DNA from: Sinotaia quadrata
Taxonomy: Eukaryota > Mollusca > Gastropoda > Architaenioglossa > Viviparidae
Direction: 5' to 3'
Assembly (NCBI GenBank): GCA_028829895.1
Contig: CM054182.1
Span: 90,049,046 to 90,113,045, forward strand
Length of the DNA stretch: 64,000 bases
In this document: positions 14,311 through 59,429 of the stretch, one piece after another
How the letters are laid out: every line of letters starts with the position of its first letter
Numbering within the stretch: the first letter of the stretch is position 1
Notes under the pieces: model-generated
The model's database searches: none
Told to the model about the DNA's origin: nothing
Seen by the model: only the letters and a program-made list of their open reading frames with translations
Position numbers and translations under genes: made by a program

Positions 14311-14610
14311 GAAATATTTGCATACTTCAACAAACTATACGTCAATGTCTATAATGCGTACAAGTCTGTGTTCATACACATATTTAAATGCGTCGAACTG
14401 TGACTAAAATGCAACTATATTTACTTACATGTATGTGCATGCATATATGTAGGCGTGTATTTTTATGACCACTATATATTTATAGGTGCGTGTATGCATG
14501 CAAGAGTGTGTACATATTTATGCATGCGAGTATGAATATTTGAGACATGGTGACAAAAGATCTTAATTAAAATGCATAAATATTAAATTATAAATATCAA
14601 AACACCCTAC

Positions 14611-16791
14611 CGTAGACTTCGAATCTTTATGTTCACTAAAGTTTTGGAGACCACCGGTACTGTTGGCCGTCATGCTCGTGACCCCATCCTTGGTTTGAAG
14701 GTCAGGAATTAATTTAAATCCAGAATGTCTTTGATCCTCGGAAGCTTGAACCGCATCTGATGGAGCCGGTGCAGCAGCAGATTGTGCCACAATCTTGGAA
14801 CAAGTACCGAAATCATTACTGTGAGAATAGTCTCGGTCTAGGTCTGTGTGAACTATGTTCTCTGCAGTGTCCAAGTCTAGAGGACTTACGTCCCTTTGTG
14901 CTTTCTCAAGTTTGCAAGGACCATTGCCAGGCAATGTGATCGTAACAAGTGTCGACTTCACAAACTTTGATTCCATGGTCACTTCTTCAGCTCCCACAGC
15001 ACGAGTGTCAACAAAGACGTCTAATGCGCTGCCTGCAGGAAGTGTCTCCAGCGTTGTATGAGAACTGGTTGAACCCTGCTCAGCAGCAGGGTCAATGTCA
15101 GCAAGTGCTTGTACGAGATTTCCGTGTTCTTTGTGAGTTCGTTGTTGCTTTCGAAATTCGTCGAAACTTGGGATTTGTATTTTGCGTCGTGTGGCCATTT
15201 CAAGAAGACCTCGGGGGAAGGAGCAGCTTCCTCTCAACATCTCGGTCAGCGGCAGGTGGGAAGCATCACCGCACCCACCCGTAATTGACTTCCTGCGCCC
15301 TTTCTGAACGATGGTGGGATCTGCCGCATTGCCGCTTTGTGGCAAACATTTTCCTGTAGACGTTGTGCGATCCTTTTCAGTTAGATAGAGTTTCCCTCCG
15401 TTTTCCGTTTTACAAATGTCTTCTCTACTGCTATGGTTGTGTAACATTTGAGAATACTTCAACCTGCCAAGTCTTTGAGGATGTTCTGAAAGGTCCCAAC
15501 TGGAGGCAGATTTTTTCAGGCATAACTTCTTGAACTGTTGTAGTACCTTCTTGTCTGCTATGTCGATGTGATTCGAAAGGTGTTTCTTAAACAGGTCGTT
15601 TCCAAGTAGCTCTTCCACTCTGGAACTTATTTGACGCTTTGGTTTGGTAACGGAACAATCGCTTTCTGCGTTCCTCTCTTCTGGATGGGCGTGTTCTTGT
15701 TGCGTGCCATGAGTACTTTTGTGTTCTTGTAAATATTGTTCGTACAGCCTACTTAAATTTGAAGACACTCTCCCTTCATCAGGTGCAGTACAACGATTGC
15801 CCAAGAAGTCTCCGTACATCGATGCAGTGGCGCTATCTAAGAGGTTTAGATTTTCCAGGCATGGAGGTCTTTGAAGGGCAGAACCCCAGTTCCTGGAATA
15901 TTTATCCATTGCTGGAGCACCTAAACTACTAGAAAGAAAGTCTGGAAAAGTATCATTTCTTTCTTTCATTTTTACAAGAGATTCTAGACTTCCATGTACA
16001 CTCCTGCTCTTTAGCCCTTCGTCAATTCTTATAGCCACGTCCCTTGCTGAAGTGAAATTACTGACGTCATTGTTTGAAGTGTGACGTCCTTGACCGGATC
16101 CGGAAAGCTCGAGCTGCACTTGGAGGTTATTGTTTAAAATTAAGAAACCGTCTTGCTGTTGTAAGTAACTAATTTCGCATTGATGCAGTGTCTGCTCCAA
16201 TAATTCACTCACAGGGCTGCGCATCAGCCATGAACTGACGGTATTATCACCTTTGTTCTTGTCAAGTTCATCGGTTGCTGGGCTGTTTGGTAGATCGCTT
16301 GTCACGTTCGTTTGGAATAACCGGAACCCATTGCTCTCTTCTTTCTTGGTGTCTCTATTTGGGATGAGACTAGAGTACAGGCAGGGTGACACGTTGCTGG
16401 AGTACGTCACGCCGAAAGGAAGAACGTCTTTCAGAGATTCAATCGTAGTGCTCTCCCCTTTACAAGCTTTTCTTTTGGGGGCTGCTTTGCACGAAGGTAA
16501 GAGTATGGTGTCCTCTCTCCAGCGACCGCACGTCCCAGGAACCCGCCTGTAGTGAGAAGTGTGGCTCATTGCTCCGGAACTGTGTCTCGTCTGCTGCTCG
16601 TAAACATTCTTGCGTGACACGTACTCACTGTTTGTGGACAGGGAACGCGTTAGACGCGGCGTGCTGCTGGAAAGTGAATCCTGGGTAGCGAATTGAATTT
16701 GACAGGTTCTGTTGTCGGATTTACAAAATCCGTTTGACAGAGACATGTAGTTGGATGGTGAGACAAAGCTGTCCTTTACGCCGATGTCCAT
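14611..16791 (-). CDS. Large exon of an unrecognised, mostly disordered protein
   Basis: This is the longest convincing coding block. The frame is open for 742 codons on the minus strand (16791 to 14563) and its composition is balanced and non-repetitive. The first ATG after an in-frame stop about 100 nt upstream sits in a good context (gcgATGG). The last 15 codons look non-coding. A donor-like ACG|GTAGGG puts the exon end at 14611 after exactly 727 codons (phase 0), so the gene probably continues to lower coordinates. The protein is Ser/Thr/Asn-rich, with no signal peptide or transmembrane segment. Ordered-looking parts are near residues 390-440 (SSRVEELLGNDLFKKHLSNH, a Lys-rich helix, then KKSASSWDL) and near 540-560 (ATRRKIQIPSFDEFRKQQ). 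The last motif faintly recalls the IPTFDEW motif of SUN-domain ossification-factor proteins, but the Trp is Phe and the context differs, so I do not assign it. Several RRxS-type sites suggest phosphorylation (inference). Confidence 0.75.
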
Positions 16792-16989
16792 CGCGCTTGT
16801 TTGAATGAGAACGGTTGTTCGAAAACAAAAATGTGTCTTGCAAAAACGAAGTAATACACCTGCGGTATTTTTAGCTTTTAAGATGATTTAATTTTTGCTT
16901 TTCTCAGTAGATGATGTTTCTTGATGTGAGTATCAAAATGCTTCAGAATGCAGAACAATCATTCTATATTTCTTTCAGAATTAATTGAT

Positions 16990-50154: not shown

Positions 50155-50284
50155 GACAATCGAGTCGGGTGAAGCAGTGCTGGGTTTGTCGCTAGTATGG
50201 CAGTTACGCATTTTTAATGTAGGTCGAGGTCTGCTCGTCCTCTCAGTTGCTCTTTACGTCATCAGCTATCCGTCGACACAGTGG
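50155..50284 (+). CDS. Claudin/PMP22-like gene, exon with TM1
   Basis: A strong acceptor (ctgtttttcctcaccag) and a consensus donor (cagtgg|gtgagt) bound a 130-nt exon entered in phase 2 and left in phase 0. It encodes a short N-terminal segment (TIESGEAVLGLSLVWQLRIF), a hydrophobic first transmembrane helix (GRGLLVLSVALYVISY) and PSTQW. The final Trp is at the position of the Trp that opens the first extracellular loop in claudins. There is no in-frame ATG, so an upstream exon must supply the start. Claudin/PMP22/EMP proteins are four-pass membrane proteins of cell junctions and the plasma membrane. The specific role of this member cannot be inferred. Confidence 0.7.
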
Positions 50285-52162: not shown

Positions 52163-52481
52163 ATTATTCAGAAACATATAAATGCTCATGACAATTCACA
52201 TCAGTCAGATTAGTCCTATTTTGTCACATGAAATAAATATAAATGTTTAGATACGTCGACTTTATAAAGTTTTATGAAGATGGATAAACAATGATAATGA
52301 ATATTAAATGGATATAAAGACACAGATAGAGCGATATTTAAAATGCTTATGAAGATGACTAAATAGTAAATATGAACATAAAACGATAATGAATGTACAG
52401 CTACAGTAATATTGCAAAGATTTATGTGGATGAAAAATATAATGAATGATTTGTGTAGCTAAATAAATATTAAATGTACAG

Positions 52482-52626
52482 ATACGTCGAAATTACACAG
52501 ACTCTTCGAACGTGAATCCAAGAATGAATCTCATCTCCACGGACAGAATGAGTTCTTTCGGAATCTGGAGCACATGTGACATCTCCTATAGTTGTGACCG
52601 GATCTGGAGACGACACCCTAAAGTCA
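52482..52626 (+). CDS. Claudin/PMP22-like gene, first extracellular loop exon
   Basis: The 145-nt exon starts after a tgtacag acceptor in phase 0, matching the previous exon. It ends at a perfect donor (aaagtca|gtaagt) in phase 1. It encodes IRRNYTDSSNVNPRMNLIST followed by DRMSSFGIWSTCDISYSC and DRIWRRHPKV. GIW..CD....C is the hallmark of the claudin/PMP22 first loop (W...G-L/I-W..C...C), here with five residues between the cysteines, which probably form the loop disulphide. NYT is a potential N-glycosylation site on the outside. The pyrimidine tract before the acceptor is weak, and a second AG at 52500 would break phase, so 52481 is preferred. Confidence 0.75.
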
Positions 52627-52664
52627 GTAAGTGATAGTAACAAAACAAAGCCTTTAAAATACAC

Positions 52665-53365
52665 TAAACAGTTAGTAACTCTTAATAATAACGTAGAGAG
52701 CCTTTAAAAATACACCAAACAGTTAGTAACTAATAACGTAGAAAGTCATTGAAAATACCTCGAACATTTAGTAACTCTATATAAAATAGAAGATAAAGAC
52801 TACACCAAAAGGTTAGTAACTCTTAATAAAATAGTGGGAAAATTCTTTGATAATACACCTAACTGTTAGTAATTCTTAATAGAATAGTAGAAAGATTTTG
52901 AAAATATACCAATAGCTAGTAAGTCTTAAGAAAATAATAAAATGTCTTGAAAATACACCAATAGCTGGTAAGTCTTAAGAAAATAGCAGCAAGTCTCCGA
53001 AAATACACCAATAGCTAGTAAGTCTTAGGCAAATAGTAGAAAGTCTTGAAAATACACCAATAGCTAGTAATGTCTTGATAATACAACAATAGCTAGTAAG
53101 TCTTAAGAAAATAGTAGAAAATCTTGAAAATACACCAATAGCTAGTAAGTCTTAAGAAAATAGTAAAAAGTTTTGAAAATACACCAAACAGTTAGTAATT
53201 CTTGAGAAAATGGTAGAACAATATCTTTTAATAAAAACCGACAAAAATACACTAAATAGTAATTCTTAAGAAAGTACTTGCAAGTCTTTAAAATACACCA
53301 AACAGTAACTTTTAATAAAAACCTTCGAAAATACACCAAACAGTAACTTTCGAAAAACTTCGAAA
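52665..53365. repeat. Degenerate ~46-bp array (intron 2)
   Basis: About 14 variants of aaatacaccaatagctagta followed by agtcttaagaaaatagtag. The minus-strand Phe/Tyr/Leu-rich frame at 53142-53369 is an artefact. Confidence 0.9.
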
Positions 53366-53604
53366 ACACTACTGTTGGTAAAATATGAGCTGGTTTGGAA
53401 AATACACATTAAAGCTGGCAGCTATGAAAAGTTAGTGTGTTTCTAAAAACGTACCTGAAGTTAGTAATTAATTTGAAAAAATGTCTTTAAAAATGAATTT
53501 AAAGTTAGTAACTGTTAGCAAAACGTGAGTAAGCTATTAAAACATAAAAATATCCCCCACAAAAAAGAAAGAAATTAAAGTAATAATTGTTAATATAAAA
53601 TGTG

Positions 53605-54770: not shown

Positions 54771-54920
54771 CTCCGACAGCGGTTATGACGGTTCAAGTCT
54801 TGATGACATTTTCATTATTTGGCTACGGCTTCGCGATGGTCCTGGAGCTGTGTGGTCGGTTGAGTTTTCTCTTTGCTGTGGGGCTTAACCGGATATCAGA
54901 GTTCCTTTTGGCCATATCCG
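54771..54920 (+). CDS. Claudin/PMP22-like gene, exon with TM2 and start of TM3
   Basis: A 150-nt exon with a strong acceptor (ttttttttaacaatgtttcag) and donor (atatccg|gtatga), entered and left in phase 1. The junction codon with the previous exon is A|CT (Thr). It encodes PTAVMTVQVLMTFSLFGYGF then AMVLELC, a long hydrophobic TM2 with the A..VQ.LM pattern usual in claudin-like proteins. A short charged turn (GLNRISE) follows, then the beginning of TM3 (FLLAIS). An open frame of 93 codons extends past the donor, but its tail has no family character. Confidence 0.8.
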
Positions 54921-56269: not shown

Positions 56270-56850
56270 TCGTAGCCAATAGTGATTACTATTTTACCTC
56301 TGTCTCATTTCATTGGTATGATTATCGTTACTATTTATGACATTTTTCATTGGCCTTTAATTGCGTTTGTCATTTCAGCCATGTCTCATTTCATTGGCTT
56401 ATAGCTATTTGCCATTTAAGATATGTTTATCTTCTTTGGCCTCTGATTGAGTTTGTTATTTCAGACACGTCTCATTTCATTGATTTATGAGCGTGTTTGT
56501 CATTTCAGCCATGTCTCATTTCATTTGACCTATAAGCGCGTTTGTGCTGTCTCATCTGATTGGCACATTGGTGTGTTTTAGCTGTTTCATTTTATTGGCA
56601 TATTAGTGTGTTTGCCATTTCATCCATGTCTCATTTCATTGGTCTGTTAGTGTGTTTGCCATTTCATCCATGTCTCATTTCATTGGTCTGTTAATGTGTT
56701 TGCCATTTCATCCATGTCTCATTTCATTGGTCTGTTAGTGTGTTTGACATTTCATCCATGTCTCATTTCATTGGTCTGTTAGTGTTTGCCATTTCATCCA
56801 TGTCTCATTTCATTGGTCTGTTAGTGTTTGCCATTTCAGTCATTGTCACT
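56270..56850. repeat. ~44-bp array related to the exon 4 splice-site repeat
   Basis: About 13 variants of tgtttgccatttcatccatg followed by tctcatttcattggtctgtt. Position by position this is a diverged version of the 42-bp unit at 58.7-59.3 kb (tgtttaccatttcagccgtg, tcacatttcatgggtctgat). Some early copies keep the CAG (…gtcatttcagccatgtc…), while the homogenised later copies have CAT. Most units are 44 bp, which would not preserve frame. Confidence 0.85.
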
Positions 56851-57970: not shown

Positions 57971-58659
57971 TCAGTAGAAGTAGTGACCGTATTCAGTCCA
58001 TTCCCTGGACATGTCAAGAAGACTAGTCTGCAATTAGAAACTGGTGACACTTGACAAATGGATAATTAAATCACAAGACAGTACCCCCTCTTAGTACACT
58101 TGTTGGCTAGCCGCAATTTTAGAATGGAGATAAACCGAGAATCAGTTTATCATTATTCAGGAAAGTATCCACAAGTCAGGGCTGGATGAAGATTTCACTG
58201 GTGCATGCAATGCTAAGAAAGAAAACCACACGACTCACCTAAGTGTAGTAAGTTGTGGCCCTTCTTTCACGAAGAACACCGTCAAACCGTTTGGACTCAT
58301 AATTGTACGCAAGTCCATAAATACTTGTTCCAGACAATCGGTCAGAATAAGTGGTGAGCTCGTACTCCAAAAATTAGCTATGATGGTAGAATAGAACTGG
58401 CTCTTTCCAAAAACTGTGCTGCAAAATCCAGAATGTGTCTTTTGTCAGAGCACTGCTCAAAGAATACCATACCCTGTAGTATGGAGTTCACACTCCTTGT
58501 GAAGGCCCACTGACGCGAACCGTGGCCACTAAATAGTAAGTAGACTTATTCTTGTTTGCCTCGTTTTCATTTCTCTGATTACATGTTAGTATTGTACACA
58601 GAAGAAAACAGTTCTAATGAAAGGAGGCAATTTGGACACTCGTCTCAGGGGCCAAAGTG

Positions 58660-59295
58660 TGTTTGCTATTTCAGTCCTGACTTATTTCATGGTTTTTCCC
58701 ATTTCAATCATATCTCAGTTCTTGGGCCTGATTGTGTTTACCATTTCACTCGTGTTTCATTGCATAGGTCTGATTGTGTTTACCACTTCACTCGCGTTTC
58801 ATTGCATAGGTCTGATTGTGTTTACCATTTCAGTCGTGTCACATTTCATGGGTCTGGTTGTGTTTACCATTTCAGTCGTGTCACATTTCATGGGTCTGGT
58901 TGTGTTTACCATTTCAGCCGTGTCACATTTCATGGGTCTGATTGTGTTTACCATTTCAGCCGTGTCACATTTCATGGGTCTGATTGTGTTTACCATTTCA
59001 GCCGTGTCACATTTCATGGGTCTGATTGTGTTTACCATTTCAGCCGTGTCACATTTCATGGGCCTGATTGTGTTTACCATTTCAGCCGTGTCACATTTCA
59101 TGGGCCTGATTGTGTTTACCATTTCAGCCGTGTCACATTTCATGGGCCTGATTGTGTTTACCATTTCAGCCGTGTCACATTTCATGGGTCTGATTGTGTT
59201 TACCATTTCAGCCGTGTCACATTTCATGGGCCTGATTGTGTTTACCATTTCAGCCGTGTCACATTTCATGGGCCTGATTGTGTTTACGGGAGAAA
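58660..59295 (+). repeat. 42-bp minisatellite carrying a 3' splice-site module
   Basis: A 42-bp unit (tgtcacatttcatgggtctg, attgtgtttaccatttcagc, cg) is repeated with perfect register. Acceptor-like CAGs end at 58833, 58875, 58917, 58959, 59001, 59043, 59085, 59127, 59169, 59211 and 59253. Older diverged units precede them, one of which keeps an acceptor at 58674. Each unit has a branch-point-like CTGAT with its A 18 nt before the junction, a pyrimidine-rich stretch and CAG. Two units have CTGGT instead, losing the A. The final unit differs at its end (tttacgggag) and runs into the unique part of exon 4. All three plus frames and one minus frame are open through the array, so openness alone is no proof of coding. 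Confidence 0.9.
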
Positions 59296-59429
59296 TTAAG
59301 AATCGCGTGATGAAGAGCAATTACAGCGCTGACCAGTCATCCTGGGGATTCCAGCTGTCTGCCATTAGTGTCTTTCTAGCAGTCATCTCCACCTGTCTCA
59401 TGAGCATGTTCCGGTTAAAAATGTTTTAA
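59254..59429 (+). CDS. Claudin/PMP22-like gene, last exon with TM3 end and TM4
   Basis: Starting at the last acceptor of the 42-bp array (59253), this 176-nt exon completes the split codon as G|CC (Ala). It encodes VSHFMGLIVFTGEIKNRVMK, a short second extracellular loop with SNYSADQSSWG, and TM4 (FQLSAISVFLAVISTCLMSM), ending FRLKMF and TAA at 59427-59429. Joined to the previous exon it restores a continuous TM3 (EFLLAISAVSHFMGLIVFTG). The four exons give 199 residues plus an N-terminus, about the usual size of claudins. Upstream acceptors in the array would add VSHFMGLIVFTISA blocks in frame. NYS is a second potential glycosylation site. Confidence 0.8.

Follow-up and report, generated by a model that had tools for sequence, protein, structure and literature searches.

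Tandem arrays that copy an intron/exon boundary, termed "mirages", have been reported in the amphioxus genes BflGb6, BflGb9, Adh3, TnC and PGBD5, where they are described as leaving regular splicing undisturbed (PMC3087553, PMC3902484). The units in BflGb6 are reported to be 150-160 bp long and 81-100% alike, with 6 and 3 units present in two haplotypes. Related cases come from human segmental duplications, in which 27 gene modifications were traced to variable tandem repeats at exon-intron boundaries; for 66% of these modifications a transcript keeping the repeat in the exon was reported to be also present (PMC2812944).

Here, we consider a 64,000-nt stretch of the genome of the snail Sinotaia quadrata (the window; C6:90049046-90113045 in an assembly searched as 984 Mb in 26 contigs), in which a 3' splice site of a predicted claudin-like gene is repeated in tandem. 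Like the amphioxus mirages, the snail array is made of minisatellite-like copies of an intron/exon boundary, many of which keep the AG or GT, and the unit, as reported for BflGb6, joins the 3' end of an intron to the 5' part of an exon. The proposal that amphioxus mirages feed intron change is a theme shared here. Unlike the mirages as described in those reports, the snail array has a period that is a multiple of three, eleven acceptors that are all in the coding frame, and an older, decayed generation of copies in the same intron. The human boundary repeats are minisatellites as well (units of 30 bp on average, 4 copies), and they are reported to change splicing, with alternative transcripts that keep or remove the repeat. 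In the human cases new introns arose, some of them via activated cryptic sites, whereas in the snail an authentic acceptor appears to have been copied and an old intron lengthened (PMC2812944).

Splice signals were likewise copied in the intron gains by tandem genomic duplication reported for potato RdRp (PMC4974935) and Drosophila (PMC2891723); unlike in those cases, the snail intron would have been lengthened at its 3' end, with no new intron formed. NAGNAG tandem acceptors also provide a single exon with two or more in-frame acceptors, at a distance of 3 nt (PMC3250501) compared to 42 nt here, where most acceptors have a branch-point motif of their own. The ABCA7 VNTR is similar in being a repeat array that affects splicing, but it is intronic by the title of the report (PMC5954066), while the snail array comprises an authentic acceptor and exon codons. 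The initial annotation knew of no described gene with this arrangement. That statement has to be given up, since the amphioxus globin, Adh3, TnC and PGBD5 genes are reported to carry such arrays (PMC3087553, PMC3902484) and the human boundary repeats are also related; in view of the latter, we also rejected the notion that boundary arrays are known from amphioxus alone (PMC2812944). Among the matches listed in a literature search that left most subscription journals outside, no such array was found for a mollusc, and in a report on gastropod haemocyanin introns both passages that mention "tandem" are unrelated to repeat arrays (PMC7931591). The snail array appears to belong to the known mirage kind, with an in-frame period and an older generation in the same intron that were not found described in the literature searched.

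The gene was predicted on the plus strand with four exons that share one continuous frame. The end of exon 1 (50226..50284, the first coordinate being arbitrary) codes for TM1 (...ISYPSTQW) and closes with the donor TGG/gtgagt, where the slash marks the splice site. Exon 2 (52482..52626) runs from the phase-0 start tacag/ATACGTCG to the donor TCA/gtaagt and codes for the first extracellular loop with GIWSTC, a possible counterpart of the GLW..C-like motif that the PMP-22/EMP/MP20/Claudin superfamily has in this loop. Exon 3 (54771..54920) covers TM2 and the start of TM3 and ends in phase 1 (CCG/gtatga), while exon 4 (59254..59429, 176 nt), predicted to be the last one, holds the end of TM3, the second extracellular loop, TM4 and the stop codon TAA. 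An exon 2 start at 52501 was rejected as being out of phase with exon 1, which 52482 fits. TM1, GIWSTC, TM2, TM3 and TM4 were read from the exon translations, and hydropathy was computed for exons 2-4.

The query protein used in the Pfam, PDB, database and paralogue searches was short of seven exon 2 residues. With this query, no Pfam family matched at E <= 1, no match was found among PDB chains, and the protein database returned no match to the predicted protein. A protein search with an alignment of the two paralogues gave no match either. Elsewhere in the window, the minus strand at 14563-16887 holds a 774-codon open frame with no Pfam match at E <= 0.1.

At the intron 3/exon 4 junction, a recount in the window gave eleven CAG acceptors spaced by exactly 42 bp, with ends at 58833, 58875 and so on to 59253. 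Each 42-bp unit combines 34 nt from the start of exon 4 with the final 8 nt of intron 3 (CCGTGTCACATTTCATGGGCCTGATTGTGTTTAC/CATTTCAG). We observed that the 23-base site (20 intron and 3 exon bases) is identical in eight acceptors (58959-59253), and that the sites at 58833, 58875 and 58917 differ from it by 1, 2 and 1 bases, respectively. A branch-point motif lies upstream of all eleven: CTGAT in nine cases and CTGGT in two (58875 and 58917). The GLIVFT codons of one copy double as the CTGAT motif and the pyrimidine-rich stretch of the next. The last acceptor (59232..59253, plus strand), which we regard as the ancestral one, has the CTGAT, a pyrimidine-rich stretch and the CAG, the A at 59235 being a branch point predicted from the motif only; the G of its own AG lies 18 nt past this A, and eight other copies have the same layout.

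The recent array of ten 42-bp units spans 58834..59253 on the plus strand, each unit departing from the one at 59212-59253 by 0-3 differences. It is preceded by three older units (58708..58833, plus strand) with 7, 8 and 7 differences, in which the AG was lost at 58749 and 58791 and the CAG was kept at 58833. Bases 58666-58707, where 19 of 42 positions differ, were left out of the unit count. Further upstream lies a twelfth CAG (58672..58674, plus strand), which had been listed as an additional in-frame acceptor at 58674 worth up to 193 codons; the frame and the codon count are right, yet its surroundings match poorly, with 6 of the 23 bases of the site mismatched.

The initial annotation is supported in part: in a claudin-like gene, a 3' splice site is repeated together with its branch-point motif, its pyrimidine-rich stretch and a run of TM3 codons, and every copy is in frame. 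The frame, described there as free of stops from 58675, is open from 58590 up to the stop codon at 59427-59429, and the last acceptor is in phase with exon 3, whose phase 1 end (...GCC ATA TCC G/gtatga) joins 59254. The statement that the same 14 codons follow each acceptor holds broadly and needs three amendments: two of the ten recent units carry V for I and, in first place, V for A; the last copy gives 11 codons (VSHFMGLIVFT), not 14, ahead of the unique part; and the three units at 58708-58833 follow decayed acceptors (CAA at 58707, CAC at 58749, CAC at 58791).

Several smaller observations concern the same region. Between the end of exon 3 (54912-54920, CCATATCCG) and that of intron 3 (59245-59253, CCATTTCAG), 7 of 9 bases agree, and ISA appears at every read-through joint between copies as it does at the exon 3/4 joint. 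The frame of the array (58593-59426) scored 28.8 bits against the Pfam family Bombesin peptide, above the cut-off of 18.1, with no single stretch passing; we take this match to be a repeat artefact.

The position of the original junction was assessed by means of a paralogue. A search of the genome with the predicted protein gave five matches, four of which were the gene itself and one a paralogue at C2:73681166-73681327 (E 3.6e-4; L014), 37% identical and free of gaps at the exon 3/4 junction. The predicted exon 4 acceptor falls at the same residue and in the same phase 1 in both (LAFS-A-VIGLLGMVIFAGEVKN in the paralogue, LAIS-A-VSHFMGLIVFTGEIKN here), and exon 4 is 176 nt long in both. TRF found no array in the first 705 bases of the paralogue locus, a stretch that contains exon 4 (149-324) together with some 380 bases of the preceding intron. 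Given the same junction residue, phase and exon length without the insert, homology identifies 59253 as the predicted ancestral acceptor, which makes the array a derived feature. The paralogue also backs the gene model and the exon boundary at 59253 proposed at the outset.

The translated paralogue fragment, in which the joint of two exon 3 pieces was guessed and about 6 residues, at least 11 residues away from the exon 3/4 junction, are probably intronic, had Claudin_2 as the best of the 8 Pfam families listed (20.4 bits, E 4.8e-4, compared to a curated cut-off of 29.1). With the score of the paralogue below the cut-off, the gene would be assignable as claudin-like only.

The differences from the unit at 59212 increase with the distance from the exon, although not strictly stepwise: the eight units closest to the exon have 0-1, the following two have 3, and the three beyond those have 7, 8 and 7. 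A decayed array of about 13 copies of 36-44 bp lies further upstream in the same intron (56298..56840, plus strand), two partial copies at its ends being left out of the count. These copies are 60-84% identical to a unit of the recent array, nine of the 13 are 42 or 44 bp long, and ungapped comparison with the unit gave 24-35 matches out of 42, compared to at most 23 of 42 on the plus strand of window positions 1-54000. The sequence between the two generations includes arrays with a period of about 50 bp that do not match the 42-bp unit.

The simplest reading of this history is that the exon edge was copied repeatedly and the copies then decayed into intron. Gene conversion homogenizing the exon-proximal end would produce a similarity gradient of the same appearance. 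The idea that the unit is a dispersed repeat was rejected: when the repeat peptide was compared with all six frames of the genome, with only the best candidates scored, nine matches were obtained, seven of them here and two in one other repeat with a 36-bp unit (L008), which was judged to be unrelated.

An open frame through so many copies might be taken as a sign of coding selection. We rejected this interpretation, since the unit is 3 x 14 nt long, the recent array is also open in other frames (two forward frames and one reverse frame in all), and random placement of the observed substitutions in the three diverged units left no stop in 52% of 20000 simulations. Selection is not required for the open frame, and the period and the frame show no sign of it. 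The probability that two or more of the three diverged units lose their AG is 0.25. Purging of AGs from the old copies was likewise rejected, because AG still closes five of the 13 older copies and, in a sixth, a CAG lies one base earlier; by our own estimate this is about the retention expected from decay to 60-84% identity.

We also looked for copies of the other boundaries of the gene. A decayed copy of the exon 2 acceptor region, with about 21 intronic and 9 exonic bases, was found at 52231..52259 (plus strand) with an alignment score of 43, while the maximum among 1966 control windows was 32 and none of them reached 43. A second decayed array (52637..53540, plus strand), with most spacings in the range 38-53 and TAGTAAGT in several units, may go back to the exon 2 donor (5' splice site). 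Its match to this donor reached 6.8 bits at the boundary (bias 8.6), and 6 of 3000 random windows gave 7.3 or more; the donor score of 26 was below the best of 60 shuffles (28), and derivation from the donor is suggestive only. Among the six boundaries tested, the donor of exon 1 and the two boundaries of exon 3 likewise scored no higher than the best of 60 shuffles.

Claudin_2 had 38 matches in the genome, and 30 loci were taken for a TRF survey. A boundary-spanning array was detected in one of the 30 loci by TRF, which would miss decayed arrays. In this locus (L017:1628-1924, on C6 near 13705779), the donor ACAGAG/GTAA occurs seven times, with spacings of 31, 43 and 44 bp, and each copy carries 11-18 exonic bases in mixed phase. 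Judging by the reading frame, the first donor is probably the authentic one; the exon is of the claudin family and calcium-channel-gamma-like. Arrays near the junction in L022 and L030 do not cross it, and the array in L023 begins about 20 bases past the donor, leaving the junction uncovered. Low-complexity sequence, not exons, seemed to account for the matches at three or more of the 30 loci (L033, L035 and L036). An LHFPL-like frame from another locus, L040, matched one database protein at 100% and, of the named proteins, was closest to one from Littorina saxatilis (56%), followed by Haliotis cracherodii (55%), which places the host among the molluscs, probably the gastropods. Since the 100% match continues beyond the final codon of the query, in the frame read from the locus, it may stem from genomic DNA and carries no information on expression. 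In L022 (1621-1920), a 40-base exact inverted match connects the near-acceptor sequence with a neighbouring intronic array, and this intron end could form a long hairpin.

In the window, TRF arrays with a period of at least 10 (63 after merging) take up 22% of the sequence, and in the 30 claudin-like loci such arrays take up 17%; some of them are multiples of microsatellites. With 22% of the window in tandem arrays, a boundary-spanning array needs no special cause here.

Our preferred reading, to which we assign a probability of about two thirds, is that the array is a mirage, with 59253 predicted to be the acceptor mainly used and the ten upstream copies likely removed as intron. As in the amphioxus arrays, the units hold intronic and exonic sequence of one junction (8 and 34 nt), the authentic junction, placed by homology with the predicted junction of the paralogue, lies at the end of the array (59253), and the arrangement recurs in another gene (L017). 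Every duplication would set a fresh acceptor directly before the intact exon; if the last site wins after each duplication, the protein would stay unchanged. The copies left behind would be freed from exon constraint, decay and turn into intron, a fate that seems to have befallen the 13 older copies at 56298-56840. Since nine of the eleven sites possess their own CTGAT, tract and AG, no sharing of branch points is required and the choice would probably fall when the branch point is selected; the last copy would then prevail as the sole one followed by the full exon 4. That the full exon would decide is suggested by work on duplicated splice sites. The insert-free protein of the paralogue and the normal splicing reported for amphioxus point to the same expectation. 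Use of 59253 plus some leakage is the likeliest outcome; for every upstream copy included through leakage, TM3 would gain 14 residues.

What speaks against the mirage reading is that no database protein matched the gene, and that 59253 has no local advantage, as eight acceptors are identical over 23 bases. The same eight identical sites, together with CTGAT at nine of eleven and all copies in frame, are what one would expect if several acceptors were used appreciably, giving proteins with 14, 28, 42 and more additional residues in TM3 and a set of products that varies between individuals with the array length. Under the linear-search rule as reported, splicing uses whichever AG comes first after the branch point, barring AGs within about 12-15 nt; the AGs here are 42 nt apart, outside the competition range of about 12 nt, and the rule is compatible with use of upstream acceptors, which it does not exclude (PMC1431707). 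The repeat-keeping transcripts of 66% of the 27 human modifications argue for some leakage, and they led us to weight appreciable use of several acceptors a little up and the mirage reading a little down (PMC2812944). On the other hand, the amphioxus arrays are reported to be normally spliced (PMC3087553, PMC3902484), and the blocks are strongly hydrophobic (GRAVY 1.76); each would extend TM3 or double it, and the four-TM protein would acquire overlapping TM-like segments. Maintenance of such products by selection is further opposed by the 36-44 bp lengths of the older copies, by the spacings of 31, 43 and 44 in L017 and by the openness expected by chance. Taken together, we consider appreciable use of several acceptors rather unlikely; the fuller proposal, in which copy number sets TM3 length in 14-residue steps and the exon edge serves as a continuing source of intron from exon copies, seems doubtful to us.

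Between duplicated sites the intron-proximal one is often preferred, and the frame is open throughout; both would fit dominance of the first strong acceptor, 58833, and a single protein lengthened by ten blocks. An insert is absent from the paralogue, and some 140 extra hydrophobic residues would hardly be tolerated in a conserved four-TM fold, which makes this outcome barely credible. Very improbable, too, is that the gene is dead or the exons arose by chance, with an array of no meaning for splicing. The predicted protein has no Pfam, PDB or database match, as such an origin would suggest; conversely, its four predicted exons share one frame, and the 37%-identity paralogue, whose fragment matches Claudin_2 at E 4.8e-4, below the Pfam cut-off, keeps the junction and the length of exon 4.

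Local sequence, proximity and exon context are the factors weighed in models of how a 3' splice site is chosen, and natural sites rarely allow their effects to be told apart. With eight acceptors identical over 23 bases, each with CTGAT and in-frame products, the locus offers a natural test of the choice between identical sites, in which junction counts alone would measure position and exon context. Successive copy ages within one intron suggest a route by which introns may lengthen from exon edges. The locus also suggests that molluscs, too, carry repeated authentic splice junctions of the sort described in amphioxus.
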